From NCBI GenBank assembly GCA_029974925.1, contig JARKQH010000403.1, positions 1 through 58,320 of the forward strand: a stretch of DNA of 58,320 nucleotides, in the 5' to 3' direction. Positions 37,680 through 54,078 of this stretch are shown in pieces. This DNA is from Verrucomicrobiota bacterium (GTDB taxonomy: Bacteria; Verrucomicrobiota; Verrucomicrobiia; Limisphaerales; UBA8199). The position numbers and the translations under genes were made by a program. Under the pieces are notes generated by a model, which searched no databases, was not told the origin of the DNA, and saw only the letters and a program-made list of their open reading frames with translations. Within the stretch, counting starts at the first letter, position 1. Every line of letters starts with the position of its first letter.

Positions 37680-37780
37680 CAAATCCTGTATGTGGTGTAA
37701 GGCGCAATCTGATGGCGGCCGATCCTTGCGGGTTGATCCACTGCGAACCGCCGGGGATTGGACCTGACCCTTTTGACACA

Positions 37781-38434
37781 ATGTCTGCGATTTTTCCAAA
37801 ATGGACGAATCGGTTGCCCCTGATGGTGCTGACGGGTGGCTTGCTGGTGGGGGGGGCCTTGGTGGCCGGGGCGTGGTATTACCTGACCCCCAAGTACTCG
37901 CGCGTGGGTTACAAGCCCATTCAGCCGGTGGCCTTTTCGCACAACACGCACGTGAATCAGTTGGGCATGGACTGCCGGTATTGCCACAACGCTGTCGAGC
38001 AGTCGTGGTATTCGAACCTTCCGGACAGTGCCAAGTGCATGAACTGTCACAACCAGGTATTGAAGGATGATCCGCGCCTGGCCCTGGTGCGGGAGAGCGC
38101 GGCGACCGGACAGCCGATTCCGTGGGTGCAAATCCATCGCGTGCCGGATTACGTCTATTTCAACCATTCGGTTCACGTCACGCGGGGCATTAGCTGCGTG
38201 GAATGCCACGGGCAGATTGACCGAATGGAAGAGGTTTACCACGCGCAGCCCTTGAGCATGACTTTTTGTCTGGATTGCCATCGGCATCCGGAGTTGAAGC
38301 TGCGTCCGTTGGACAAGATTACTGACATGAATTGGCAGCCGGAATCCCCCTTGCAACAGCGTGAGTTTGGACAGCGCGCCATAAAGAATTGGAAAGTCGA
38401 ATCGCTGGAAAACTGCTCCGCATGCCACCGATGA
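37781..38434 (+). CDS. actA: alternative complex III subunit ActA, pentahaem cytochrome c
   Basis: A 217-residue protein with one N-terminal membrane helix (LPLMVLTGGLLVGGALVAGA) and five CxxCH haem sites: CRYCH, CMNCH, CVECH, CLDCH and CSACH. This matches the pentahaem ActA of alternative complex III, which passes electrons from the Fe-S subunit ActB to mono-haem partners on the periplasmic face. The ATG at 37781 is chosen because the membrane anchor follows; the open frame extends upstream. Its stop overlaps the actB start (ATGA). Confidence 0.95.
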   Translation: MSAIFPKWTNRLPLMVLTGGLLVGGALVAGAWYYLTPKYSRVGYKPIQPVAFSHNTHVNQLGMDCRYCHNAVEQSWYSNLPDSAKCMNCHNQVLKDDPRLALVRESAATGQPIPWVQIHRVPDYVYFNHSVHVTRGISCVECHGQIDRMEEVYHAQPLSMTFCLDCHRHPELKLRPLDKITDMNWQPESPLQQREFGQRAIKNWKVESLENCSACHR

Positions 38435-41400
38435 ACCCTCTGCCCTCCGCTTCCCCGCCTCCGGAATCCGGCCGCGCTTATTGGCGGAGCCTGGATGAAC
38501 TGTCCGACACGCCCGAGTTCCGCCAATGGCTCGAGCGGGAATTTCCCGAGGGGGCCAGCGAGTGGTTTGACCCGGTGTCGCGGCGGCACTTCGTGCGGAT
38601 CATGTCGGCGTCGTTTCTCCTGGCGGGTTTGGGCCTGGCGGGGACCGGGTGCCGGCGGCCCGAGCAAAAGATTCTCCCGTTCAGCAAAATGCCGGAGAAT
38701 TACACCCACGGAGTGCCGCAGTATTACGCCACCTCGATGCCGGCGCGGGGCGGCTCGTTACCCCTGGTGGTCAAATCGCACGACGGCCGCCCAACGAAGA
38801 TCGAAGGCAATGCCTTGCATCCCGATAGCAACGGCGGCACCGACCGTTTCGCCCAAGCCTCGATCCTGAACCTTTATGATCCCGACCGCGCGACGCGTTT
38901 CCTGAAGGACGGAATCGCGACCACGCCCGAGGCGGCGCTGGATTTTCTTGCCACGCTCTCCCGGCAGCTCCAGACCGGCGGAGGCCGGAAGCTGGCCTTG
39001 CTGGTCGAACGCAATTCTTCTCCTTCCCGGGAGCGGCTGCTTAGCCTGCTAACCGAAAAGCTGGGGGCGCGGGTCTTTTTGTATGAGCCGGTGCAGACCG
39101 CGGCGGATCAATTGGCGGCGCAGCAGGCCTTCGGCCGGGCGGTAAAACCCATTCCGCATTACGACCGGGCCCGGACGATCCTCTCGCTGGACTGCGATTT
39201 TCTGGGGTCTGAGGACGGCGTGCACAACCATATCCGGCGCTTTGCGCAGGGGCGGAAGATCGAGAAGCCAGACGACTCACTCAACCGGCTGTATGCGGTG
39301 GAGAGCCTGCTCACTTTAACCGGGGCCAACGCGGATCACCGGTTGCGGGTGCCGAGCAGCGGGGTGGCGCTGGTGGCCGCCGCCATTGCCGCCCACATCC
39401 TGCGGGGGGACTCCCGGCCTCAAGGATTGGATCAGATCGCCCCGCCACCCGGCGTGGACCCGAGGTGGATTTTGGAATGCGCCAAGGATCTTTTGCAGCA
39501 CCAGGGTCAGAGCCTCGTGGTTGCCGGCCACCGCCAGCCTCGCGTGGTTCATTTGCTGGCCTATGCCATGAATGTGGCCCTCGGCAACGTCGGCAAGACG
39601 CTGGTCCTGAATGAAGCGCCGCCGTTGCGGGAACAGAACCTTCCGGAACTGGCTCGCGCTCTTCATGCCGGCGAGGTCGAAACGCTGGTAATCCTCGGCT
39701 GCAACCCGGTGGCGACCGCGCCGGCGGATTTGGACTGGGCCAGTGCGCAAAAGCGGGCGCGGACGGTGGTGCGGCTGGCATATTACGAGGACGAAACCGC
39801 CCCCCTCTGCACGTGGCACCTGCCGGCAGCTCATTTCCTGGAGTCCTGGGGGGATGGTTTGGCTCAGGACGGCAGCCTCGTTCCGGTTCAACCGCTGATT
39901 GCCCCGCTGTTTGGCGGGTTGACCGAGCTGGAGGTGTTGGCCCGGATTGCGGGTTATCCCACCTCCAGCCCCTACGAAGTGGTTCGCGAGACCTTTGCCG
40001 GGTTCGTTAAAGGGGCGAACTTCGAGGAGGCGTGGAAGAAATTTCTCCATGACGGTTTCCTGGCCGGGTCGGCGGCCCGGCCGGTCGCGGCCACGTACAA
40101 TCCAGCGCCGCTGTCGCAGGCGCTGCCGAGCCTCCAACCCGCGTTGCCGTCCAAAGACCGGCTCGAGGTGGTCTTTCATCTGGATTACAGCGTGGACGAC
40201 GGCCGTTACAACAACAACGGCTGGCTGCAGGAAATGCCGGACCCGATCACCAAAATGACCTGGGACAACGCGGTCCTCATCAGCCGCAAAACCGCCCAGG
40301 AGCTCGGGGTGAAGAACCACGAGATGGTGGAAATCGCCCTGGGGGGCCGCGTCACGCGCGGCCCGATCTGGATTCAACCGGGCATGGCCGACTACTCGCT
40401 CGGGCTGGCGCTGGGCTATGGCCGGACCCGTACCGGGCGCGTGGGGCACAAAACAGGTTTTGATGTCTATCCGCTGCGGACCACCGGAGCCGAACATTTC
40501 GCCGTTGGGGCCAGCCTCAAGCCCCTGGGCACGACCTATCCGCTCTCGTGCACCCAGGACCATTGGTCCATGGAAGGTCGGCCGATTGTGCGCGAGGCCA
40601 ATTTGAGCCAATATCGGGAGCATCCGGACTTTGCCACGCGGATGAACGCCGAGGAACCTCCGGTCAACCAGCCCCTCTATCCAAACCCGTTGGACAAGTT
40701 GAAACCCAGTGCGCTGCATCAGTGGGGCATGGCCATTGATCTGAACCGGTGCGTGGGCTGTTCCGCGTGCATCATGGCATGCCAGAGCGAGAACAATGTT
40801 CCCATCGTGGGCAAGGAGCAGGTCCGCCGGGGGCGCGAGATGCACTGGATTCGGATTGACCGCTACTACGCCGGCAATCCCGCGCAACGGCAGTACACGG
40901 ACAGCTACAAACGCGAGCAGCAGCAGCAGTTCGAGGCCTGGGTGGATGACCCGCAGGTGGTGACGCAGCCCATGCTCTGCCAGCATTGCGAGGCGGCGCC
41001 ATGCGAGAACGTCTGCCCCGTCAACGCCACGGTACATGATCACGAGGGCCTTAATGTGATGGTGTACAACCGCTGCGTCGGCACCCGGTATTGTTCGAAC
41101 AACTGTCCTTACAAGGTGCGCCGCTTCAACTACTTTGATTACAACAAACGGCCCATCACCGCGCTGTATCTCGGGCCTTTTGGACGGCGCAAGGACGATG
41201 AATGGGACCTGCTGAAGATGGTCAAGAACCCCGACGTCACCGTGCGCATGCGCGGGGTGATGGAAAAATGCACCTTCTGCACTCAGCGAATTGAAGCGGC
41301 CAAAATCGCGCAGAAAGTCAAAGCGGGCGCGACGGGCGAGGTGGTGGTGCCGGAGGGAACCTTCACCACGGCCTGCGCCCAGGCGTGCCCCGCGGGCGCA

Positions 41401-41664
41401 ATTGTTTTTGGCAACCTGAATGACCCCAACAGCCGCGTGGCCAAACTCAAACAGCAGGACCGCAATTACAGCGTCCTGGACCTGCTGCTGACCAAGCCCA
41501 GGTTGACCTACCTGGCCCGGGTGCGGAACCCCAACCCGGCGATGCCGGACTACCAGGAAGCGCCGCTGAGTTTCGAACATTTCCGCGAAAAAATGGGTGA
41601 TCCCTTCAAGCACTCCAACACGGGCTCTGGACAGGGTCACGCGACAGGGAAAGGAGGCCACTGA
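38431..41664 (+). CDS. actB: alternative complex III subunit ActB, fused molybdopterin-like/Fe-S protein
   Basis: A 1077-residue periplasmic subunit. An extended Tat region ([14 protein letters not shown], then [19 protein letters not shown] and a lipobox-like LAGTGC) leads to a molybdopterin-oxidoreductase-like domain that lacks an N-terminal Fe-S Cys set and, in known ActB, carries no molybdenum. The last 320 residues are a ferredoxin-type domain with Cys clusters [11 protein letters not shown] (about 774), [14 protein letters not shown] (about 850), [12 protein letters not shown] (about 881), CTFC (about 947) and CAQACPAG (about 981). In characterised ActB these bind three [4Fe-4S] and one [3Fe-4S] cluster. 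Start and stop overlap actA and actC. Confidence 0.95.
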
Positions 41665-43094
41665 TGGCCGCGCGAGCCACTCCCTTGACCATTCCCGAGC
41701 CCCCGGCCGAGCTGCAGCGGCCGTTGCTGGTGGACAACTACCGCAGTTTCGGCTGGATCTCCAACCGCGTTTGCTCGCTCACCGAGGGCAAGGCCCCGGT
41801 CTGGTGGTGGGTGTTGTTCATTCCGAGTGTTCTGGCGCTGGGGATGTTGCTGTTCATGCTCGGTTATCAAATTTCCACGGGCGTGGGCGTTTGGGGCAAC
41901 ATGCATCCGGTGATGTGGGGCTGGGATATCATCAATTTCGTCTGGTGGATCGGCATCGGCCATGCCGGTACTCTCATTTCGGCCATTCTCTTCCTCCTCC
42001 GCCAGCGCTGGCGCACGGCGGTGAACCGGGCGGCCGAGGCCATGACCATTTTCGCGGTCATGTGCGCGGGCATTTACCCGGCCTTGCACGTGGGGCGGGT
42101 TTGGTACGACTGGTGGCTGTTCCCGATCCCGAACTCGAACTCCATCTGGCCGCAGTTCCGGTCCCCGCTGATGTGGGACGTTTTTGCCGTTTCGACCTAT
42201 TTCACCGTCTCGGTGTTGTTTTGGTACATGGGCCTGATTCCGGACCTGGCGGTGATGCGAGACCGGGCGCGGACCAGGATTCGTCAGTTCGCTTACGGGC
42301 TGTTTGCCCTGGGATGGACCGGCTCGAACCGGCACTGGAGCAATTACGAAAAGGCCTACCTGATTCTCGCGGGGCTTTCGACCCCGCTCGTGCTTTCGGT
42401 TCACTCCATCGTGTCGCTCGACTTCGCCGTTTCACAGGTGCCCGGCTGGCATACCACCATTTTCCCGCCTTATTTCGTGGCTGGCGCGATCTTCTCCGGA
42501 TTCGGCATGGTGCTGACGCTGCTGATCCCGCTGCGGAGCATCTTCAAACTCGAGGACATCATCACCCTGCGGCACATAGACGTGATGTGCAAAGTGACCC
42601 TGGCGACCGGCTCGATTGTGGGTTACGCCTATGGCATGGAGTTTTTCATTGCGTGGTATAGCGGCAGCCCCTATGAGCGCTTCGCGTTTATCAACCGGGC
42701 GCTCGGGCCGTATTGGTGGGGGTATTGGACCATGATTGTCTGCAACGTGGTGGTGCCGCAGTTGTTCTGGTTCAAGTCCTTGAGGCGCAACCTGGTGGTG
42801 GTGTTCATCATTTCCATTCTCGTTAACATCGGGATGTGGTTCGAACGCTTTGTCATCATCGTGATCTCGCTGCATCGGGACTTTGTGCCGGCCAACTGGG
42901 GTTACTACTCGCCCTCGTGGGTGGATATCTGCACCTACGTTGGCACCTTTGGCCTGTTTTTCACCCTGTTCCTGTTATTTATCCGGTTCTTGCCCATGAT
43001 CGCGATTTCCGAAGTCAAGGGCGTCACCCCGCAGTCGGATCCGCACCATCCGCTGGGCGGCGCCAAAATCAAGGAGATGGCCCTCCATGAATAA
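41664..43094 (+). CDS. actC: alternative complex III subunit ActC, NrfD-like quinol-oxidising membrane subunit
   Basis: A 476-residue integral membrane protein of the NrfD/PsrC family with about ten helices. Segments such as [20 protein letters not shown] and [20 protein letters not shown] are typical of ActC. In the structurally known complexes this subunit holds the quinol site next to the ActB [3Fe-4S] cluster. The ATG at 41664 overlaps the actB stop (TGATG), and the stop overlaps the actD start by 8 bp. Confidence 0.95.
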
Positions 43095-43626
43095 TGCGCC
43101 CAAACCCTACGGCATCATTGCCGAATTCCGCACGGCGGCGGACATTTTGCACGCCGCGGAGAAAGTGCGGGACGCCGGCTATCAGAAGTGGGATGTTTTC
43201 ACACCCTTTCCCGTGCATGGCATGGACCGCGCAATGGGACTCAAGAATTCGAAGGTGGGTTGGTTCGCGTTTCTCGGGGGGGTGGCGGGGTACACGACGG
43301 GGATGTTGATGATCTGGTTCATGAACGCCCTGGACTATCCGCTGGTGGTGGGGGGCAAGCCGATGTTCAGTCCGTTTTACGCCTTCCCCCCTTCTTATGA
43401 GCTCACGATTTTGTTCGGGGCCTTCGGCTCGCTGTTCGGGATGTTGTTCTTGAACCGCCTGCCGCGGTTGTACCATCCCCTGCTCAAGAACCGCCGCTTC
43501 GCGCTCGTGACGCATGACCGGTTCTTTCTGGTCATCGAATGCGCGGACCCGAAGTATTCGGAGGCCCAGGCTCGCAAATTGCTTGAAGAAGCCGGCAGCC
43601 GGCACATCGAAATGGTGGAGGACTGA
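43087..43626 (+). CDS. actD: alternative complex III subunit ActD (DUF3341)
   Basis: A 179-residue membrane protein of the DUF3341 family: a cytoplasmic alpha/beta start ([20 protein letters not shown], then [18 protein letters not shown]) and two helices (about 59-83 and 102-122). ActD is a structural subunit without cofactors. It has GGAG upstream inside actC and overlaps both neighbours. Confidence 0.93.
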
Positions 43627-44270
43627 TGCGCTACTTTTTCGCCCTCTTCGCCGTTTCCGTCGCGGCCGTGATTGCTCTGTTGGGTTTTCGCGGCAGCCAC
43701 TTCCGCAAGCCGCCGCTTTACATTTTTCCGGACATGGAATTTCAATTGAAGCTCCGCCCCCAGGCGCCCAGCGGCTTCTTCCCCAACGGCCGGACCTCGC
43801 AACTGCCGGTCCCAGGCACGATTGCGCGCGCGGTGCCGGTGCAGACGGCATCGGGGCCGGTGTTCCCCTTTGAGGATGCGCCGGTTAACACGGGCTGGGT
43901 TGTCGGAACGACCAATTTTGTCGAGCACAATCCGCTGCCGATCACTTCCGCATTACTCAAGCGCGGCCAGCAGCGATACACCATCAACTGCGCCCCTTGC
44001 CACGGCGGGCTGGCGGATGGGAACGGCATTACGCGGAAGATCGGGGCAATGGCCGTGGTTGCGAATCTGCATGACAAACGCATTGTCGAGATGCCGGATG
44101 GAGAGCTGTTCTACGTGATTACACATGGGCGCAACCTGATGGGGCCGTACGGGGCCCAGGTCTCGATCGAGGACCGGTGGGCCGTGGTTGCCTACCTGCG
44201 GGCGCTCCAACTGGCCCGGCTGGGGGAACCCGAGGATTTGCCGCCGCAACTGCGAACCTTGCTGAAATAG
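43626..44270 (+). CDS. actE: alternative complex III subunit ActE, mono-haem cytochrome c
   Basis: A 214-residue periplasmic cytochrome with an N-terminal membrane anchor/signal (YFFALFAVSVAAVIALLGF), one CxxCH site (CAPCHGG, about residue 122) and a late Met in NLMGPYGAQV as the probable sixth ligand. ActE is the usual exit cytochrome of alternative complex III toward a terminal acceptor. ATG overlaps the actD stop (TGATG). Confidence 0.93.
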   Translation: MRYFFALFAVSVAAVIALLGFRGSHFRKPPLYIFPDMEFQLKLRPQAPSGFFPNGRTSQLPVPGTIARAVPVQTASGPVFPFEDAPVNTGWVVGTTNFVEHNPLPITSALLKRGQQRYTINCAPCHGGLADGNGITRKIGAMAVVANLHDKRIVEMPDGELFYVITHGRNLMGPYGAQVSIEDRWAVVAYLRALQLARLGEPEDLPPQLRTLLK

Positions 44271-44277
44271 TGGCTCT

Positions 44278-45537
44278 ATGAAGAAGTCCATGTCCACCCC
44301 CCTGGATTTGTCGCGCTGGCGGAAGGTGCCCCTGCTGTTGACGGCGGGCGGCGGCTTGGTGGCTCTGCTGGGCTTGCTGGTCAACCGGGAGCAGTTTGCC
44401 TTTTCGTGGCTGCTGGCGTTCATGTTCTTTTTGAGCTTGAGCGCCGGGGCGTTGTTCCTGGTGATGGCCCATCATCTGTTTGATGCGGGGTGGTCGGTGC
44501 CCCTCCGCCGGTTCCTTGAGCACCTCGCAAATCTGTTCCCGTGGCTGGCGGTCCTGTTTGTGCCGATCGCGCTGCTGGCGCCGACGCTTTACCAGTGGAT
44601 GAGCCTGGATCCGCATCTGGACCATGCGTTGCACGCGAAGCAGCCCTTGTTCACGCGGCCGATGTTTTACGCGGTGGCCGCCATCTGTTTCGGCGTGTGG
44701 ATCTTCCTATCGAACCGGCTCCGTCACTGGTCGCTTGAACAGGACCGCTCCGGCGCGGCCCTGCCCACCCACCGCATGCGCTTTTATTCGTGCGTCGGAA
44801 TCTTTCTGTTTGCGATCACGTTGACGCTGGCGGCAATCATGTGGATGAAGGCGCTCCAGCATCAGTGGTTTTCAACGATGTACGGGGTGTACTATTTTGC
44901 GGGAAGTGTCTGGATGACCCTGGGGACGGCATACCTCATCACCCTGGTGCTGGACCGGCAGGGGGTGCTGACCGATACCCTGCATGATCACCAGTATTAT
45001 TTCCTGGGCTCGCTGCTGTTCGCGTTCACGGTGTTTTACGCCTACATTCATTTTTCCCAGTATTTCATCATTTGGAACGGGAACATGCCGGAGGAGACCT
45101 TCTGGTATGTGCTGCGCGAGAAGGGCACCTGGTGGTGGGTGGGAATGGTGATCATTTTCGGGCATTTTTTCCTGCCATTCCTCGCTTTATTGCGCATAGA
45201 TGTGAAGAGTATGTTTGGGTTCATGGCGCCGCTCTGCGGCTGGACCTGGCTGATGCACTACCTTGACTTGTCTTTCAACATTATGCCGGTGAAGCATCCC
45301 GACGGGTTCGTCCTGCATTGGATTGACCTCGGGTGCTGGGCATTCATGGCGGGGTTGCTGACGATGATCTTTCTGCGGGAGTACGGCAAGCATCCCCCCT
45401 ATCCCCTGAAGGACCCGCGGCTGGTGGAGGCAATGGGGTTCGCGCATCCGATTCCGACGCAGATATCCGGCGGAGAGCTGGATGAATGCGATGACACGCC
45501 GGCTGTGCATCCGGAAGTGCAGGGAGGTCGCCAATGA
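44278..45537 (+). CDS. actF: alternative complex III subunit ActF, NrfD-like membrane subunit
   Basis: A 419-residue ten-helix membrane protein paralogous to ActC. It has the His/Trp-rich conserved segments of ActF (AIMWMKALQHQWFSTMYGVY, GTWWWVGMVIIFGHFFLPF). In known complexes ActF has no cofactor and may form a proton-conducting path. An alternative start at 44290 has no clearly better ribosome site. Confidence 0.93.
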   Translation: MKKSMSTPLDLSRWRKVPLLLTAGGGLVALLGLLVNREQFAFSWLLAFMFFLSLSAGALFLVMAHHLFDAGWSVPLRRFLEHLANLFPWLAVLFVPIALLAPTLYQWMSLDPHLDHALHAKQPLFTRPMFYAVAAICFGVWIFLSNRLRHWSLEQDRSGAALPTHRMRFYSCVGIFLFAITLTLAAIMWMKALQHQWFSTMYGVYYFAGSVWMTLGTAYLITLVLDRQGVLTDTLHDHQYYFLGSLLFAFTVFYAYIHFSQYFIIWNGNMPEETFWYVLREKGTWWWVGMVIIFGHFFLPFLALLRIDVKSMFGFMAPLCGWTWLMHYLDLSFNIMPVKHPDGFVLHWIDLGCWAFMAGLLTMIFLREYGKHPPYPLKDPRLVEAMGFAHPIPTQISGGELDECDDTPAVHPEVQGGRQ

Positions 45538-45908
45538 ACGAAGGTGGATTGAAACAAGGTGCTTCAGCCGCCCTGGCGGTGGCGATTGTGGGGACGTTCC
45601 TGATCGTGGCCGGACTCGTGGGGGTGATGCGGCGGCATACGCAGGCGCCGCTGGTGGATGCGGCGCGGATCGCGGAGCGGAGCAAGGCGCTGGCGGAACT
45701 GCGGGAAGCGGAGGCGGTGGCCTTGAGCACGCCGGCCTGGATTGACCAGGCCAAGGGCCTGGTCCGGCTGCCCATTACCAATGCCATGGACTTGGTGCTG
45801 CGGGCCTGGGAGAATCCGGCCGCGGCCAGGTCCAACCTGATTGCGCGGGTTGAGAAAGCCACGGCGGCGCCGCCCAAGGCGCCGGAGAAACCCAGTGAGT
45901 TCGAGTGA
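45534..45908 (+). CDS. small single-helix membrane protein of the act operon
   Basis: A 124-residue protein with one N-terminal helix (ALAVAIVGTFLIVAGLVGVM) and a periplasmic domain containing WIDQAKGLVRLPITNAMDLV. The WxDxxKGxVRxPIxxAM pattern is shared by small proteins found beside cytochrome oxidase and complex III genes in several phyla. No cofactor motif is present. GGGAGG lies 6 nt before the ATG, and both ends overlap neighbours, so it is probably a subunit or assembly factor bridging complex III and the oxidase-like module. Confidence 0.7.
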   Translation: MNEGGLKQGASAALAVAIVGTFLIVAGLVGVMRRHTQAPLVDAARIAERSKALAELREAEAVALSTPAWIDQAKGLVRLPITNAMDLVLRAWENPAAARSNLIARVEKATAAPPKAPEKPSEFE

Positions 45909-47374
45909 TGGTTTCTCCGGAGGCAAAGGCCAAAGCGGCGGCAGGCGCGCCGGCGATTGACGCTGGGAGCGCCGAGGAGACCGTTTCGTGCCGGTGGCCC
46001 TTGCTGGTTTTGTTTTTGGGCGCGGCGGGGTGGCTGGTGGCAGGCTCGCTGCTGGGGCTCCTTGCCTCGATCAAATTTCATTCACCGATGTTTCTGGCTG
46101 AACCGGCCTGGCTCACGTACGGCCGGGTGAAGGCAGCCAGCGCGGCCCTCCTGGTTTACGGCTTTTGTGTCCCTACCGCGCTCGGAGTGGGCTTGTGGTT
46201 GATGTCGCGCCTGGGGCGCGTGGCCCTGGCCGGGCCGGTCGTGGCGGGATTCGGCGGGGGGCTCTTGCATGCGGGCGTGGCGGTGGGTTTGGTGGGAGTG
46301 TTGCGGGGTGACGGGACGGGATTTCTTCATTTGGAGTTTCCGGCGGGGGCGGCGGGCCTGGTTTTTTTGGGGTATTTGTTGCTCGGGACGGTTGGGGTGC
46401 TGACGTTGTATCGGCGCCGGGAAGCGCGGATGGAGGCGGCGCAATGGTTTGTGCTGGCAGGGTTGTTTTGGTTTGGGTGGATCTATTCGACGGCGAATTT
46501 GTGTTTGTTGGTGTTCCCGGTGCGGGGTGTGGCCCAGGCAGCCATCAATTACTGGCATACAGGCAACTTGCTCGGGGTGTGGATGGGGTTGATGGGGCTG
46601 GGGACCGTGTTTGCCTTGCTGCCTAGGCTGGCGGGGCGTGAACCGGGCCGGGAGTATGTCGCCATGTTTGTTTTTTGGGTCTTGTTGTTGTTCGGGAGCT
46701 GGACAGGCATCCCGGCGACGGCGCCGTTGCCGGCCTGGATGCCGGCCCTTAGCACTGTGGGCACAGTCTTGAGCGGATTGGGCGTGCTGGGAGTGGCGGT
46801 CATTGTTCATCAAACACTGGCTGGCAGGTATGGTTCGGTATGGCGGGATGAGCGGTTGCGGTTCCTGGGGTTGGGTGTGGCCGCGTATGTCGTGGGAGGG
46901 GTCATGCAAGTCGTTGAGGCTCTCAGCGGGAGGTCGTGGATGCTGCACTTCACCTGGTTCACAGCCGCGCGGGAGTGGATGCAGGTTTATGGTTATCTGG
47001 CTCTGGTGATGTTCGGGACGGTTTATGCCATTGTGCCGGCGTTGGTGGGGGTGGATTGGTGGAGCCGGCGTTTCTTGCGGTTGCATTTCTGGCTGGCGGG
47101 CGCCGGTTTGTTGTTCGTGGCGGCCCCGCTGGCGGCGGGCGGTGTGGTGGAAGCCGCGAGGCTGTTGAATCCTGCACTGGGATTTGTGGAAGTGAGCCGT
47201 GGAACGCTGATGTTTTTGCGGCTGAGCACGATTGGCGAGCTCTTGATTTTGGCTGGGAACGGCTTGTTCTTCGTGAATCTGGCGGGGACGGTGGCGGGTA
47301 TTTGTCGGCGCGCCCTGGCCGATGCACTCCGACGTTGGGGCGCGGAGACGACGGGAGAGGGGGCTGCGGCATGA
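45908..47374 (+). CDS. CcoN-like (cbb3 oxidase subunit I-like) membrane protein lacking all haem/copper ligands
   Basis: A 488-residue protein with about twelve helices that aligns with cbb3-oxidase subunit I: WLTYGRVKAASAALLVYGF matches the first haem-ligand helix, NLLGVWMGLMG the CuB helix, and HFTWFTAAREWMQVYGY the last ligand helix. The family ligands are all replaced: low-spin haem His is S78, CuB His is G219, the CuB His-His pair is G267-I268, and the His-x-His of helix X is R355/W357. The chain has only seven His in all, with no HH or HxH. It is therefore unlikely to bind haem b, haem b3 or CuB. Codon use is shifted toward TTG, GGG and GTG relative to neighbours. It overlaps both neighbours. 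Likely a structural membrane scaffold. Confidence 0.85.
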   Translation: MVSPEAKAKAAAGAPAIDAGSAEETVSCRWPLLVLFLGAAGWLVAGSLLGLLASIKFHSPMFLAEPAWLTYGRVKAASAALLVYGFCVPTALGVGLWLMSRLGRVALAGPVVAGFGGGLLHAGVAVGLVGVLRGDGTGFLHLEFPAGAAGLVFLGYLLLGTVGVLTLYRRREARMEAAQWFVLAGLFWFGWIYSTANLCLLVFPVRGVAQAAINYWHTGNLLGVWMGLMGLGTVFALLPRLAGREPGREYVAMFVFWVLLLFGSWTGIPATAPLPAWMPALSTVGTVLSGLGVLGVAVIVHQTLAGRYGSVWRDERLRFLGLGVAAYVVGGVMQVVEALSGRSWMLHFTWFTAAREWMQVYGYLALVMFGTVYAIVPALVGVDWWSRRFLRLHFWLAGAGLLFVAAPLAAGGVVEAARLLNPALGFVEVSRGTLMFLRLSTIGELLILAGNGLFFVNLAGTVAGICRRALADALRRWGAETTGEGAAA

Positions 47375-48276
47375 GGCATGGCGCGTTGGTTTATCTGGGG
47401 GCTTTTTTTGCCCTCGCCCTGTCGTGGACGGGTTTTGTGCTGACACCGCAGATGCAGGTGGGACAAATGGTGGCAACGAACACGGTGCCGGCAGGGGCCC
47501 GCTATCCGGTGGCGCGGCCGGGTTTGGCGCAACAGGGACTCCAAGTGTATCGGGCAAACGGTTGCGCCTATTGCCATAGCCAGCAGGTTTGGCAGCAGGG
47601 CACCGTGTTTGATGTCATGTTGACCGATGGCGGAACCAACCAGCCAGGGGTGGTCGCGGCCCTGCAGGCGGTGATGCCCCGCTTGTCCCGGCCGGAAGCT
47701 TTGCAGTTGCTCGAAGGGTTGCCCAAGCCCGTCCTGCGGGGCGTCAGCCGGGAGGAGGCGGAAAGCGCGGTCAAGAAGCTGACGACGAGCGGAGCCAAGG
47801 CCACCCTGTGGATCGAGGCGGTGGGGCCTGATCTTGCCCGGGGCTGGGGAAAACGGCGAAGTGTGCCGGAAGATTTCTTGTATGATTACCCCGTGCTGCT
47901 TGGGGCGCAGCGGGTTGGACCCGACCTGGCTGACGTCGGTGTTCGTCAGCCGGATGTGGGCTGGCATTTGAGGCATTTGTATGCGCCAGCATCGGTCGTG
48001 ACCGGCTCGGTCATGCCGGGGTATCCGTATCTGTTCGAAAAGCGGCGTGTCGTAGGGGCGGGGTCCGCAGACGCCCTGGCGTTGAGCGGGGACCATGCTC
48101 CCGAGGTCGGATACGAGGTCGTGCCGAAGCCGGAAGCCAAGGCGCTCGCAGCTTATCTGGTGAGCTTGCGCGCGGACGCGCCCTTGTTTACCGCGCCGTT
48201 CAGTGTGGGGGCCTCGGGCGGCCCGGCGGCGCCGGCAACCAACGCGGCGCCAACTGCGGGAGGGGGTGTTCCATGA
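47371..48276 (+). CDS. ccoO: CcoO-like mono-haem cytochrome c with an inserted L7/L12-like domain
   Basis: A 301-residue anchored cytochrome c: N-terminal helix (ALVYLGAFFALALSWTGFVL), haem site CAYCHSQ (residues 65-71), and the conserved CcoO second half (RVGPDLADVGVRQPDVGWHL, SVMPGYPYLF with Met215 as probable axial ligand). Between them, residues about 79-147 do not belong to CcoO and resemble the C-terminal domain of ribosomal protein L7/L12. The C-terminus is a Gly/Ala/Pro tail. CcoO normally brings electrons to CcoN; here the CcoN-like partner has no metal site, so electrons may go to the next cytochrome or to a soluble acceptor. It overlaps its neighbours (ATGA at both ends). Confidence 0.88.
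   Translation: MRHGALVYLGAFFALALSWTGFVLTPQMQVGQMVATNTVPAGARYPVARPGLAQQGLQVYRANGCAYCHSQQVWQQGTVFDVMLTDGGTNQPGVVAALQAVMPRLSRPEALQLLEGLPKPVLRGVSREEAESAVKKLTTSGAKATLWIEAVGPDLARGWGKRRSVPEDFLYDYPVLLGAQRVGPDLADVGVRQPDVGWHLRHLYAPASVVTGSVMPGYPYLFEKRRVVGAGSADALALSGDHAPEVGYEVVPKPEAKALAAYLVSLRADAPLFTAPFSVGASGGPAAPATNAAPTAGGGVP
47605..47811 (+). other. ribosomal protein L7/L12 C-terminal-domain-like insertion in the CcoO-like cytochrome
   Basis: Residues about 79-147 start with VFDVMLTDGGTN and contain EALQLLEGLPKPVLRGVS and REEAESAVKKLTTSGAKA. They follow, in order and spacing, the L7/L12 pattern EFDVVLxxxGxNK, EAKDLVExAPxxVKEGVS and KEEAExxKKxLExAGAxV. The match covers the whole small domain of about 70 residues. 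It sits between the haem-binding CxxCH and the Met-ligand half of the cytochrome. Confidence 0.75.
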
Positions 48277-48875
48277 GCGTTGAAATGCGGCGCCCTGCGC
48301 AGCCGGCAACTGAGGGGCGGGAGGAGCCGACGCCGCAAGGTGCGGTCCCGATGTGGCTGTTTATCCTCCTGTTCGTGGCGTTGTTTTGGGGTATGAACTA
48401 TTTTGACCGCCACGGCGCGTGGTTCAACGGGCGGGTGTACGCCCCCTACCGGTCGCTCGCCGAGTTGCAGATGCATCAGCCGCCCACGGGCGGCATCAAT
48501 TTGGAGCGCGGCCGCGCCGTTTACGAAAGCGTATGTGCGCTTTGTCATGGCGTGGATGGGAAGGGCAAGCCCGGACAGGCGCCGCCGCTGGCGGGGGCGG
48601 AGTGGGTGCTGGGGCCCGTGAACCGCTTGGTGCGGATCCCCTTGGCGGGGTTGACGGGGCCAATCGAGGTCAACGGACAACAATGGAATCTGGCGATGCC
48701 GGCAATGGGAGCGGCGCTGTCGGATGAGGATTTGGCGGCAGTCTTGAGCTACATGAGGACCTCGTGGGGGAACAAGGGCACGGAGGTTACTGCCGAGCAG
48801 GTGGGCGCCGTCAGAAAGGAGATCGGCAACCGAACGCAACCGTTTACGGCTGCGGAGTTGCTGACCGTGCAGTGA
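48273..48875 (+). CDS. membrane-anchored mono-haem cytochrome c (CcoP-like)
   Basis: A 200-residue protein with a cytoplasmic start, one helix (MWLFILLFVALFWGMNYF) and one class-I cytochrome c domain: CALCHG at about residue 89 and a candidate axial Met in NLAMPAMGA. Canonical CcoP has two haems, so this is a one-haem version, matching the third position of a cbb3 operon. It is the last gene of the ten-gene act operon; a weak hairpin follows. Confidence 0.88.
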   Translation: MSVEMRRPAQPATEGREEPTPQGAVPMWLFILLFVALFWGMNYFDRHGAWFNGRVYAPYRSLAELQMHQPPTGGINLERGRAVYESVCALCHGVDGKGKPGQAPPLAGAEWVLGPVNRLVRIPLAGLTGPIEVNGQQWNLAMPAMGAALSDEDLAAVLSYMRTSWGNKGTEVTAEQVGAVRKEIGNRTQPFTAAELLTVQ

Positions 48876-48904: not shown

Positions 48905-49047
48905 AGGCGGAATCCAAAGGCAACGGCAGCACGGCAAAAAAATTATAGCGGGGGCCTCTATTCGGGGTTATTTTGCCGACTTTGAGCACCCACGATGGGT
49001 CGGGACTGGCAACGCCTTGGCTGGCGCCGCCAGCGACCCAAAGCGAA

Positions 49048-50163
49048 ATGACTAAGCGTGTTGATTCAGACAGCTTCGCTCCCCGCCCACGCAAAGGCGG
49101 TGTGCGACAGCAAGCCGGTACCCACGAGGGCCTTCCGCAGACCAATCGCCAGCGTTTTTTGGCCGCATGCCGGTGCGAGCGGGTGGATCGTCCCCCCGTG
49201 TGGCTGATGCGACAGGCGGGACGGGCCTTGCCGGAATACCGTGCGCTGAAAGAGAAATACACTTTTCTGGAACTGGTGCAGACGCCGGAGCTGGCTGCGG
49301 AGGTGACGTTGCAGCCGATTCGGCGATTTGGCTTTGACGCGGCGATTTTGTTCAGCGACATCCTGGTCATCGCGGAAGGGCTGGGGCAGAAATACCAGTT
49401 TCGGGACCAAGGGGGCATCGAGATGGAGTTTCTGCTCAAGGGCGCAGACGACATCGAACGGCTCGAAGTGGGGGCGGTTTGCGAACGACTTGAATATGTG
49501 GCCCGGGCCCTGAAACTCATCAAGGGCGAACTGAGAGGACGGACGGCCTTGATCGGTTTCGCGGGCTCGCCCTGGACCTTGGCCAATTTCATGATCCAGG
49601 GCGGCGGCGTAAAGGAATACACCAAAGCCAAGGCGCTTTTCTACACCGACCCGGGCCTCTTCAGGCGGTTGATGGAAAAGTTGACCTCGGCCGTCAGCGA
49701 CTTTTTACGGCTCCAAATTGACGCGGGGGCGGAAGCAGTCCAGATTTTTGATAGCTTGGGCGGGGTGTTGTCCGATGGCAGTTTCGGGCCCGCCTCGGCA
49801 ATGTGGATCAAAAGAATTGTGGAATCAGTGAACGGCCGGGTGCCAGTGATTGTTTTTAGCAAGGGCGCGCACGGGAATTGGAAAGACTTGGTCCAGACGG
49901 GGGCCAATGTCCTGGGAGCGGACTGGACGGTCCGGTTGGCGGAACTGGCGCTTCGCCTGCCGGCGACGGTTGGGCTGCAAGGGAACCTGGACCCGTTCGT
50001 CCTGAGCACCTCCCCCGAGGTGGTGGGCAGCGAAACCAGCCGCATCTTGCGGGAGATGAATGGGCGGCCCGGGCACATATTCAACCTCGGGCATGGCGTG
50101 ACGCCCAACGCGAAGCTGGAAAACATTGAGCGCCTGGTCGCGACCGTTCGCGAATTCAAATGA
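49048..50163 (+). CDS. hemE: uroporphyrinogen decarboxylase
   Basis: A 371-residue enzyme that removes four acetate carboxyls from uroporphyrinogen III. Hallmarks are PPVWLMRQAGRALPEYR near the start, FSDILVIAEGLG, GFAGSPWTLANFMIQGG and NLGHGVTP near the end. The N-terminus before RFLAACR is about 25-30 residues longer than usual, so a later start (for example the GTG at about 49098) is possible. The stop overlaps the hemN start (ATGA). Confidence 0.94.
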   Translation: MTKRVDSDSFAPRPRKGGVRQQAGTHEGLPQTNRQRFLAACRCERVDRPPVWLMRQAGRALPEYRALKEKYTFLELVQTPELAAEVTLQPIRRFGFDAAILFSDILVIAEGLGQKYQFRDQGGIEMEFLLKGADDIERLEVGAVCERLEYVARALKLIKGELRGRTALIGFAGSPWTLANFMIQGGGVKEYTKAKALFYTDPGLFRRLMEKLTSAVSDFLRLQIDAGAEAVQIFDSLGGVLSDGSFGPASAMWIKRIVESVNGRVPVIVFSKGAHGNWKDLVQTGANVLGADWTVRLAELALRLPATVGLQGNLDPFVLSTSPEVVGSETSRILREMNGRPGHIFNLGHGVTPNAKLENIERLVATVREFK

Positions 50164-51536
50164 GCATGCTGACCGTTGATCTCGATCTGGTGAAGAAGTA
50201 CAACGTGGCCGGACCGCGTTACACTTCCTATCCCCCCGCGACCCGGTTTACCGAAGCGCTGAAGTGGGCCGACCTGGCCGGGCTGGTGCTCGAAAACAAC
50301 CGGACGGAACGGGATCTGTCGCTTTATTTCCACATTCCCTTTTGCGAGACGCTTTGCTGGTATTGCGGCTGTACCACGGTCATCACCCTGAATCACGCCC
50401 AAGGGGAGGCTTACGTGCGCTACCTGGACCGGGAGATGGCCCAGATGAGCACTTTGCTCAGCCCCCGCCGAAAGGCCGTGCAATTGCATTGGGGTGGGGG
50501 GTCCCCCACCTTCCTGGCTCCGGACGAAATCCGGCGGCTGGGGGAGAGCATCCGGCGGCATTTTGTTTTTTCGGAGGACATCGAGGCAGGGGTGGAAGTG
50601 GACCCGCGCCGGCTGACACGGGATCACCTGGTGGCCCTGCGCGAAATCGGGTTCAACCGCGCTTCGATCGGGGTCCAGGACTTCGACCCGACGGTGATGA
50701 AAGCAGTGCATCGGGAGCAGCCGCGGGCGCTGGTCGAGCAGGTGCTGGGCTGGGTGCGGGAGCTGGGCTTCAGCTCGGTGAATTTCGACCTGATTTATGG
50801 TCTGCCGTATCAGACCGTGGAGTCCTTTAATCGAACGCTGGACGCCGTGGTGGAGATGGGCCCGGACCGGCTGGCGGTATTCAGCTACGCCCATGTGCCG
50901 TGGGTCAAGCCGGCGCAACGGATTCTGGAACAAAAAGCGTTGCCCGGCGCGGAAGTCAAACTCCAGCTTTTGAAAACCGTCATCGAGCGTCTGACGGCGG
51001 ACAACCGATATGTGTACATCGGCATGGATCATTTTGCCCGGCCGACCGACGAGCTGGCGGTGGCCCAGAGCCGGAAGCAACTGCAACGCAATTTCCAAGG
51101 CTACAGTACCCGCGGTGGGGCCGATATTTACGCCTTCGGCATGTCCTCCATTTCACAGATTCCCGAGGCCTACTGGCAGAATGAAAAGGACCTGCCCAAG
51201 TATTACGCCGCACTCGACGCGGGCCGGGTGCCCCTGGCGCGCGGGTATCGCGTCACCGAGGAGGACAAAATCCGGCGGGAGACCATCATGCGGGTGATGT
51301 GCGACTTGTCTTTGAACTACGCGGCGATGTCGCAGCGTTTGGGGATAGATTTCGCCGCGCACTTCGAGCGCGAGCTGGAATCGCTCGCGGGGTTCGAGGC
51401 GGATGGCTTGGTGCGGCGCACGGCGGAGGGAATCGAAGTGACCGGCACCGGCCGCCTCTTCATCCGCAACATCGCCATGAGCTTTGATAACACGCTGGCG
51501 CCCGAGGGCGAGCGGAAACATTCGCGGACGATTTGA
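50160..51536 (+). CDS. hemN: oxygen-independent coproporphyrinogen III oxidase (radical SAM)
   Basis: A 458-residue radical SAM enzyme. The N-terminus has KYNVAGPRYTSYPPA, which distinguishes true HemN from the HemW haem chaperone; the cluster motif is CETLCWYCGC (CxxxCxxC plus a following Cys). It converts coproporphyrinogen III to protoporphyrinogen IX without O2, so haem can be made at low oxygen. It overlaps hemE and lies 57 bp before the hemY start. Confidence 0.95.
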   Translation: MSMLTVDLDLVKKYNVAGPRYTSYPPATRFTEALKWADLAGLVLENNRTERDLSLYFHIPFCETLCWYCGCTTVITLNHAQGEAYVRYLDREMAQMSTLLSPRRKAVQLHWGGGSPTFLAPDEIRRLGESIRRHFVFSEDIEAGVEVDPRRLTRDHLVALREIGFNRASIGVQDFDPTVMKAVHREQPRALVEQVLGWVRELGFSSVNFDLIYGLPYQTVESFNRTLDAVVEMGPDRLAVFSYAHVPWVKPAQRILEQKALPGAEVKLQLLKTVIERLTADNRYVYIGMDHFARPTDELAVAQSRKQLQRNFQGYSTRGGADIYAFGMSSISQIPEAYWQNEKDLPKYYAALDAGRVPLARGYRVTEEDKIRRETIMRVMCDLSLNYAAMSQRLGIDFAAHFERELESLAGFEADGLVRRTAEGIEVTGTGRLFIRNIAMSFDNTLAPEGERKHSRTI

Positions 51537-51592
51537 AGGGGGACTGCCTGCAGGATGCTGCGAACTCACTGGAAACCGGTGACGAAAGAAGG

Positions 51593-53038
51593 ATGAGCCC
51601 TGTTGCAATCATCGGCGCGGGAATCACCGGGTTGACCGCTGGCTTCTACCTCCAGCGCAAGGGCATCCCGGTCACGGTCTATGAAGCCGGCTCCCGGGTG
51701 GGAGGGGTCATCGAGTCCCTCCGGAGCCATGGCTTTCTGGCTGAGTTCGGCCCCAACACAATCCTCGAGACGTCGCCCAGAATTGGGGAGTTGATTCGCG
51801 ACGCGGGGCTGCAGTCCCGGCGGCTGGATCCGGACCCGCGGGCCTCGGCGCGTTACGTCGTCCGTTACCGGCGCCCGATTGCCATGCCGGCCTCGCCGCT
51901 GGGTTTTTTCACCACGAAACTTTTCACCGCCAAAGCCAAGCTGGCCGTGTTGCGGGAACCGTTTGTGCCGCCCCGCCGCGACGGCAAGGAGGAGAGCGTG
52001 GCGGAGTTCGTGGTGCGCCGGCTGAATCAGGAGTTTCTCGACCACGCGATTGACGCCCTGGTGGCGGGAGTTTATGCGGGGGACCCGCACAAACTGTCAG
52101 TGACGCAAGCCTTCCCGAAGCTGGGGCAGCTCGAGGAGCGCTACGGCTCTCTGATTCGCGGTCAAATCTTCGGCGCCCGCGAGCGGAAACGGCGCGGAGA
52201 AGTGGCCAAGGACCGCGCGCCCAAGTTCTCATTTGATGAAGGGCTGCAGGTGCTGCCCGAAACCCTGCGGGAGCAGTTGGGGCAGGGGGTGCGGCTCAAC
52301 ACGAAGGTGACAGGTTTGCGGCGGGTGGGCGGCGCTTGGGAGCTACGCTATGTGGCGGGGCGGCAGGAGGGCCGGGCGGAGCACAGCGCGGTAATCTACG
52401 CCGGCACGGCGCATGCCCTGGCTGAACTGGGAGTCGAGGCGCAGCCCCCCATCAGTCTCGAGGCATTCGCCGAAATCCGATATCCGCCGGTGGCCAGTGT
52501 CGTGCTGGGATTTCGCCGGCAGGACGTGGCGCATCCCTGTGAAGGCTTTGGCATGCTGATTCCGAAGGTTGAAGGCTTCAAGATTTTGGGAACCATTTTT
52601 TCGAGCTCGTTGTTTCCCAATCGGGCGCCCGCGGGGCACCTCACCCTGACCAGTTACGTCGGCGGGGAACGCTACCCCGATCTGGCCGGATTGCCGCCCG
52701 ACCGCCTGACCCAAATCACCTGCGATGATTTGAAGGTCCTGCTTGGAGTCAGCGGCCGCCCAATCTTTGAGCATACCGTTTACTATCCCCGCGCCATACC
52801 GCAGTACGTGGTGGGCTACGGTCGTTACCGGGAGCTGATGAACGAGATTGAAACGCAGGCGCCGGGCCTGTTTTTTGCCGGCCATTACCGCGACGGAATT
52901 TCGTTAAGCGATTCGATCGTATCGGGCTGCAAAGCCGCCGAGCGTGTGGCTGCCTGGATGGCGCAAGCCCGTTCCGGACCTCCGGAGGAGAGCGGCCTCC
53001 GGCCGTCTGGCGCTCCCGCTAAAGGGCACATTCGATGA
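51593..53038 (+). CDS. hemY: FAD-dependent protoporphyrinogen oxidase (HemY/HemG type)
   Basis: A 481-residue flavoprotein with the dinucleotide fold PVAIIGAGITGLTAGFYLQR, GGVIES, and a C-terminal GLFFAGHYRDGISLSD stretch. It oxidises protoporphyrinogen IX to protoporphyrin IX, normally using O2. The start is the ATG at 51593 right after GAAAGAAGG. Its stop overlaps hemH (ATGA). Confidence 0.93.
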   Translation: MSPVAIIGAGITGLTAGFYLQRKGIPVTVYEAGSRVGGVIESLRSHGFLAEFGPNTILETSPRIGELIRDAGLQSRRLDPDPRASARYVVRYRRPIAMPASPLGFFTTKLFTAKAKLAVLREPFVPPRRDGKEESVAEFVVRRLNQEFLDHAIDALVAGVYAGDPHKLSVTQAFPKLGQLEERYGSLIRGQIFGARERKRRGEVAKDRAPKFSFDEGLQVLPETLREQLGQGVRLNTKVTGLRRVGGAWELRYVAGRQEGRAEHSAVIYAGTAHALAELGVEAQPPISLEAFAEIRYPPVASVVLGFRRQDVAHPCEGFGMLIPKVEGFKILGTIFSSSLFPNRAPAGHLTLTSYVGGERYPDLAGLPPDRLTQITCDDLKVLLGVSGRPIFEHTVYYPRAIPQYVVGYGRYRELMNEIETQAPGLFFAGHYRDGISLSDSIVSGCKAAERVAAWMAQARSGPPEESGLRPSGAPAKGHIR

Positions 53039-54078
53039 AGAAAGCGGTTTTGTTGGTGAACCTGGGTTCTCCGGACTCGCCCTCGGTGCCGGATGTCAGG
53101 CGCTATTTGCGGGAGTTTCTCATGGATGGAAGGGTGCTGGATGTGCCCTGGCCGGTGCGTTTCTGCATCGTCCATTTCGCGATTTTGCCTTCGCGGCCGA
53201 AGGCGTCCGCGCACGCCTATCAAAGCATCTGGACGCGGGCGGGGTCGCCCTTGGTGGTGACCAGCCGGAACGTCCAGCGCCAACTGCAGCAACGGGTTGA
53301 AGTGCCGGTCGAGCTGGCCATGCGCTACCAAAATCCCTCCATTCCCAACGCGGTCAAGCGCCTGGCTTCACAAGGGGTTGACGAACTGCTCTTGATTCCG
53401 CTTTTTCCCCACTACGCCATGTCCAGCTACGAAACCGCCGTCGAGCGCGTTCGCGAGGTGGCCGCCCGCCGGGCTCCGGCGATGCGAATTGTGGTCCAGC
53501 CGCCTTATTACGAAGACGCGGACTATATTGCGGCGCTGGTGGGCAGCGCGCAGGACTATCTGGCCGAGCCCTACGACCACCTGCTGTTCAGCTTTCACGG
53601 CGTGCCGGAACGGCAAATTCGAAAATCGGACCCAACCGGTCACCATTGTCTCAAGGCGCCAAACTGCTGCGAGACGCCCAGCCCGGCGCATGCCTTCTGC
53701 TATCGGGCGCAGTGTTTCAAGACCGTGGCGGCCTTCAACCGGGCGGCGGGCATCCCGGCCGGGAAGAGTTCGGTTGCGTTTCAGTCGCGGCTGGGGCGTG
53801 ACCCCTGGTTGACCCCCTACACCGACCAACAGGTGGCCGCCCTGGCCCGGGGCGGGGTGAAACGGTTGCGGGTGATCTGCCCCGCATTTGTCTCAGATTG
53901 TTTGGAGACGATTGAGGAGATTGGCATGCGCGGCAAGGAGACGTTCCTGGAGGCGGGCGGAAAGGATTTCAAGATGATCCCCTGTCTGAACGAGCATCCG
54001 CTCTGGATTGCCGCCCTGGAGCGGATGGTGCAACGGTTTCTCGCCCCCGCAAAAGCCGGCGTGGCTGTGGGAGTCTGA
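53035..54078 (+). CDS. hemH: ferrochelatase
   Basis: A 347-residue enzyme that inserts Fe2+ into protoporphyrin IX. LLVNLGSPDSPSVPDVRRYL opens the chain; the catalytic His lies in LLFSFHGVPERQI. A loop with five Cys (CLKAPNCCET... FCYRAQC) follows; similar internal Cys sets bind [2Fe-2S] in some bacterial ferrochelatases, which is possible here. CPAFVSDCLETIEEIG is the late family motif. Last gene of the late haem operon. Confidence 0.94.
   Translation: MKKAVLLVNLGSPDSPSVPDVRRYLREFLMDGRVLDVPWPVRFCIVHFAILPSRPKASAHAYQSIWTRAGSPLVVTSRNVQRQLQQRVEVPVELAMRYQNPSIPNAVKRLASQGVDELLLIPLFPHYAMSSYETAVERVREVAARRAPAMRIVVQPPYYEDADYIAALVGSAQDYLAEPYDHLLFSFHGVPERQIRKSDPTGHHCLKAPNCCETPSPAHAFCYRAQCFKTVAAFNRAAGIPAGKSSVAFQSRLGRDPWLTPYTDQQVAALARGGVKRLRVICPAFVSDCLETIEEIGMRGKETFLEAGGKDFKMIPCLNEHPLWIAALERMVQRFLAPAKAGVAVGV

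Follow-up and report, generated by a model that had tools for sequence, protein, structure and literature searches.

A CcoN-like subunit without metal ligands, probably kept as a cytochrome scaffold, in the alternative complex III operon of Verrucomicrobiia

The operon for alternative complex III (ACIII) in a 58,320-nucleotide stretch of DNA from a Verrucomicrobiota bacterium (the whole of which is called the window here) contains a gene for a subunit I of the haem-copper oxidase type, related to CcoN of the cbb3 oxidases, which retains none of the six His ligands of haem and copper (0/6). Ligand-less proteins of this kind, referred to below as dead, recur across the class Verrucomicrobiia alongside sister proteins, encoded in the same operon, that are active or half-active, which goes beyond what an earlier reading of the window from its sequence alone (the sequence-only reading) had foreseen. 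That the protein is dead in this sense is nearly certain. We also consider it probable that its ancestor was an active oxidase whose gene lay in the ACIII operon and that it now serves as a metal-free membrane scaffold of 12 helices, keeping cytochromes c of the CcoO and CcoP types anchored beside ACIII.

The gene is unbroken from its ATG at 45908 to its TGA at 47372-47374 (488 aa), and its ORF overlaps both flanking genes. Its product scores above the cut-off of the Pfam COX1 profile for the haem-copper oxidase superfamily (103.1 bits, cut-off 34.8) and below that of the ccoN equivalog TIGR00780 (only 66.5 bits, cut-off 583), and its sequence matches in the PDB are solved CcoN only. An AlphaFold model from an alignment of 93 (pLDDT 94.5, pTM 0.93) has the 12-helix fold of subunit I of the haem-copper oxidases. 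The top Foldseek matches of this model are CcoN chains (TM 0.84-0.86), as are the top VIA matches (Z 48-50, rmsd 1.7-2.1 over 441-450 residues), and the VIA Z values against NorB (cNOR), at 42-44, lie below those for CcoN. Judging from the predicted structure, the protein is a genuine haem-copper oxidase relative with the CcoN fold.

The ligand columns were taken from a MAFFT alignment that includes the canonical fused CcoNO of the source genome (G000:C235) and the active CcoN proteins encoded in the same operon in relatives. The cross-linked Tyr is gone as well (Table 1); R355 occupies the b3 His column and W357 that of the second low-spin haem b His, and the loop of CuB His 2 and 3 is without His under both gap placements. 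The sequence-only reading had listed the residues that replace the ligands, all correctly except for CuB His 2 and 3, where it gave Gly-Ile and the alignment has Pro-Ala followed by a two-residue loop deletion. It was right that the haem-ligand helix aligns without gaps, as HFTWFTAAREWMQVYGY pairs with HFTHHTISHAHTGMYAF of the active homologue L065, and that every ligand is lost, as no other His falls in the ligand columns. Each ligand His is retained by fewer than 11% of the 94 dead homologues, and the Tyr by none (its column is Gly or Ala in 86/94), compared with 18/18 in the active act-linked proteins; the loss is therefore not a matter of chance.

Table 1. Features of the ACIII operon and its CcoN-like gene in the window.
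Feature	Position	Strand	Basis
actA, pentahaem cytochrome c of ACIII	37712..38434	+	five CxxCH
actB, Fe-S / molybdopterin-like ACIII subunit	38389..41664 (ORF as listed)	+	position, conservation, synteny
actC, NrfD-like membrane subunit	41664..43094	+	Pfam NrfD, 80 bits
actD	43087..43626	+	position, synteny
actE, mono-haem cytochrome c	43626..44270	+	CAPCH motif
actF, ActC paralogue	44278..45537	+	position, synteny
orf124, small protein, one likely membrane helix	45534..45908	+	synteny; most loci have it between actF and ccoN
ccoN-like pseudo-oxidase subunit I without metal ligands	45908..47374	+	ORF, profile, alignment and predicted-structure evidence
S78 codon, replaces low-spin haem b His (TM2)	46139..46141	+	alignment column
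G219 codon, replaces CuB His 1	46562..46564	+	alignment column
G263 codon, replaces cross-linked Tyr	46694..46696	+	alignment column
P269-A270 codons, replace CuB His-His pair; 2-residue deletion just after	46712..46717	+	alignment column
R355-E356-W357 codons, replace His-x-His	46970..46978	+	alignment column
ccoO-like mono-haem cytochrome c	47371..48276	+	Pfam FixO, 80 bits (cut-off 29.6); CxxCH
CAYCH haem c motif of CcoO-like protein	47563..47577	+	
Ribosomal L7/L12 C-terminal-like domain within CcoO-like protein	47608..47808	+	PF00542, 41.8 bits
ccoP-like mono-haem cytochrome c, one membrane anchor	48273..48875	+	Pfam Cytochrom_C, 49 bits
CALCH haem c motif of CcoP-like protein	48534..48548	+	

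In the window, actA through the ccoP-like gene form a single operon, in which neighbours from actF through ccoP overlap by 1 or 4 bases. The ACIII part is complete, actABCDEF including a pentahaem ActA, a mono-haem ActE and an NrfD-like ActC, and actB probably starts at an ATG near 38422. The small protein encoded by orf124 matches no Pfam family above cut-off and is a possible ActG or CcoQ analogue; a motif resembling W(I/V)D...VRLPI..AM recurs in its family. The CcoO-like protein scores under the cut-off of the TIGR00781 equivalog. Its L7/L12-like domain lies between the haem motif and the FixO part and occurs in 10 of the 68 CcoO homologues scanned, and CcoO is often 290-330 aa long in the order of the window, against 200-245 in active-type loci. 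CcoP is not the di-haem protein of the cbb3 complex, having one CxxCH in the window and likewise in active act-linked loci. The haem biosynthesis genes hemE, hemN, hemG and hemH (48973-54078) directly follow the operon.

A match is present in 84 of 97 relatives, nearly all with the same gene order, and the arrangement actABCDEF-orf-ccoN-ccoO-ccoP is kept across the class in nearly all loci with enough flank; the expected co-occurrence of ligand-less homologues with actABCDEF is thus borne out. The window's order contributes 77 scorable act-linked CcoN proteins, of which 75 are dead and two (L065 and L067) fully active. The 36 scored in the rest of the class comprise 19 dead proteins, 16 active ones and one, L128, that retains just the low-spin haem b pair, with CuB His 1 replaced by Asn, the Tyr by Ser, CuB His 2 and 3 by Gln-Arg and the b3 His by Tyr. 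This H-N-S-Q-R-x-Y-H pattern recurs in four more genomes (L184, L189, L190 and L277), so that the haem-b-only group looks like a stable class. One genome (G050) has a dead ccoN in its act operon (L080) and an active stand-alone ccoNOP elsewhere (L162:1209-4029), followed by a copper-ATPase-like gene, a duplication in which the two copies divide the labour. In Chthoniobacter flavus Ellin428, a draft genome, the dead ccoN is split over two frames (L218:14553-16050), by sequencing error or real decay. In scans of genome contigs, the single CcoN-like protein as query gave 0 matches, and an ActC alignment worked as a query.

The presence of the active act-linked homologues L065 and L067 in the same order, and of 16 more in the class, supports the proposed descent from an active oxidase. 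In a CcoN tree computed without the ligand columns, most dead sequences group together (support 94/91), probably in part through long-branch attraction; the dead L135 is nested in the active family f63, and L128, likewise within an active clade, stands beside the active L130. A single ancestral loss, with all dead sequences as one clade, was rejected by the AU test (p=0.009), and the metal site has therefore been lost repeatedly. Family f66, which has active and dead members, could be kept together without rejection (p=0.166). At least 9 changes between the dead and active states are needed on the ActABCDEF tree. Because sets of ligands are easier to lose than to regain, repeated loss is the simplest reading of this pattern, and horizontal transfer or replacement of a ccoNOP cassette may explain some lineages.

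The dead proteins are under purifying selection. In close pairs with unsaturated dS, dN/dS ranges from 0.05 to 0.36, above the values for ActC and well below 1, which together with the intact ORF agrees with the sequence-only reading that the gene is kept by selection. The haem c motifs are retained too. C65, C68 and H69 of CcoO (C-x-x-C-H) are invariant in 68/68 aligned homologues; in dead-type loci one CxxCH is present in CcoP (88/88) and in ActE (94/94), and ActA has five haem motifs in 78 of the 79 scored. Seven CcoO sequences seemed to lack CxxCH, which proved to be an effect of the start codon chosen or of a contig edge. Columns conserved in active act-linked CcoN are mostly kept in the dead proteins, except near the metal site; conservation falls most sharply in helices 6-9, and only a little in TM1, TM2 and the N-terminal loops. 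Since the haem c motifs are kept and the drop lies largely around the metal site, selection acts on the cytochromes and the scaffold and not on the oxidase centre. It counts against the scaffold reading that the periplasmic loops, where docking might leave a sign, are not significantly better conserved than the helices (permutation p=0.12).

Of the dead genomes of the order, about nine in ten have a further PF00115 match, the commonest being an A-type subunit I of ~610 aa, and the source genome also has an A-type subunit besides its canonical fused CcoNO. Seven dead loci, from four families, have an A-type coxI on the same strand that begins 1.4-2.4 kb downstream, and the same is seen in three further methanotroph genomes; a coxI of this type also follows ccoP in Chthoniobacter flavus and in L214. 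Three observations weigh against the scaffold reading. No A-type oxidase was found adjoining the operon in the window's own order, the dead protein is the sole PF00115 match in six genomes of that order (three of the six with a full-length cytochrome bd), and the active act-linked L134 likewise has coxI downstream.

Five genomes of family f65 (2.2-2.5 Mb) carry the AMO/PmoA family and would on that account be verrucomicrobial methanotrophs. In all five the dead ccoNOP adjoins an aa3-type oxidase operon; four have the order actABCDEF-orf-ccoN(dead)-ccoO-ccoP-coxA-coxC, with coxB further on. The fifth (G168) has a nos operon after actF, ahead of the small ORF that precedes ccoN (L282:9478-16045), and a nos operon inside the act cluster, matching this one, has been described for Methylacidiphilum caldifontis IT6 (PMC11102522). 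The ligand-column strings of the five CcoN proteins, SESSHGFV in four and ADAAHLQT in G362, are all dead. A search of the five genomes for a canonical ccoN in another place found none, and their remaining PF00115 proteins are of the A type, ba3 and NorB; other candidates for 'cbb3' in these genomes proved to be the ba3 oxidase and NorB and were rejected. In the literature, a 'cbb3-type oxidase' beside ACIII has been credited to verrucomicrobial methanotrophs and Opitutaceae (PMC8498564, PMC6688271 and PMC11102522, citing Refojo 2010; for methanotrophs also PMC10205796), and has been linked to high oxygen affinity in methanotrophs (PMC6688271). Because the CcoN of the five genomes is without ligands and a canonical ccoN was not found, the published oxidase appears to be the dead protein. 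On this evidence, the act-linked ccoN of the methanotrophs could hardly encode an oxidase.

ACIII oxidises menaquinol and delivers the electrons, by way of ActA and ActE, either to an oxidase or to a soluble carrier (PMC5928083, PMC8552683). A CcoN that has lost its haem b, haem b3 and CuB sites, and would itself hold no haem, may have been kept as a membrane scaffold that holds CcoO and CcoP at the haem wire of ACIII, where the two would serve as its electron exit. Physical assembly on ACIII is suggested by the shared operon. Electrons would then run from menaquinol through ActA and ActE to the haems c of CcoO and CcoP and on to a further acceptor, as a rule an oxidase of the aa3 (A) type, reached directly or via a soluble cytochrome. 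For an adaptor role of the dead CcoN, we regard the evidence as tipping moderately in favour.

The retention of the haem c motifs and the dN/dS values argue against decay, that is, against a non-functional remnant carried along by its operon context. The protein does evolve fast relative to ActC, and the split gene of Chthoniobacter flavus (L218) would fit such a process; however, intact ORFs in dozens of genomes and dozens of families, dN/dS well below 1 in close pairs, a predicted fold of high confidence and translational overlaps with the neighbours make this highly improbable. The high divergence of CcoN while the ACIII subunits stay conserved, and the adjoining A-type coxI in several lineages, would also suit an assembly factor or stabiliser, not a permanent subunit, which inserts and matures CcoO and CcoP or the neighbouring A-type oxidase. 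Against this, the gene is kept beside CcoO and CcoP also in loci that, like the one in the window, have no oxidase genes after them, and we consider such a role unlikely.

The sequence-only reading had offered a proton channel as an alternative. In this view the protein would be a route for protons or other ions that is coupled to ACIII, the former proton channels of CcoN moving ions without redox chemistry. The 12-helix fold is retained, and a channel-region Asn and Tyr, assigned by position and invariant in active sequences, are ~80% conserved in the dead ones. However, the column of S240, by our numbering the serine of the K-pathway analogue in CcoN, is Ser in all active homologues and Ala in 78% of the dead, no new conserved polar residue has arisen in the dead sequences, and helices 6-9 are where conservation falls most; the proposal is not borne out and we rate it as quite unlikely. 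The protein might instead use another cofactor or substrate (a quinone, a lipid, another metal, or haem held by other residues) in a new catalytic role. L128, L184, L189, L190 and L277, with their low-spin haem b pair and a Tyr at the b3 His, speak for this to the extent that the family's use of cofactors has changed before, yet no new candidate ligand is conserved among the dead sequences and the replacements vary by family, so that we hold it to be very unlikely. The best reading is one that the sequence-only reading had also put forward, a haem-free scaffold linking ACIII with cytochromes.

Taken over the class, the evidence inclines us to the view that a large part of Verrucomicrobiia has an ACIII with a built-in metal-free oxidase subunit that serves solely as a cytochrome platform, that the oxidase centre has been given up on many independent occasions, in some cases with low-spin haem b alone left in place, and that the 'cbb3 oxidase' of the methanotrophs does not exist as an oxidase. 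Repeated evolution within one operon provides a natural series (active, haem-b-only and haem-free) for the study of the non-catalytic roles of subunit I, and the same series bears on how ACIII hands its electrons on. It also undercuts genome-based claims of high oxygen affinity in methanotrophs through a cbb3 oxidase, and automatic annotation of a 'cbb3-type oxidase' beside ACIII in this class needs a check of the ligands. In the openly readable literature that we searched, no report of a ligand-less CcoN or of a metal-free core subunit of a haem-copper oxidase was found.

With CcoN of the cbb3 oxidases (C-type haem-copper oxidases; PDB 3mk7, 8smr and 6xkw), the protein shares the full-length 12-helix fold, the CcoO and CcoP partner genes and many structural residues; in contrast to them, it has lost the haem and copper ligands and the Tyr, it scores far under the ccoN equivalog cut-off, and its CcoP is mono-haem. 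NorB has the superfamily fold in common, but retains its haem ligands and is less similar than CcoN. The gene cluster is the same as that of the 'cbb3-type oxidase' published for methanotrophs and Opitutaceae, where it was reported as a working oxidase. Supercomplexes of ACIII are known with caa3 in Rhodothermus marinus (PMC5928083) and with aa3 in Flavobacterium johnsoniae (PMC8552683), and direct electron transfer to the oxidase is possible in them. An act cluster followed by oxidase-like genes is common to these organisms and to the operon described here, whereas in the latter, known from its genes, the first oxidase-like subunit is dead and a real A-type oxidase comes after it in some lineages.
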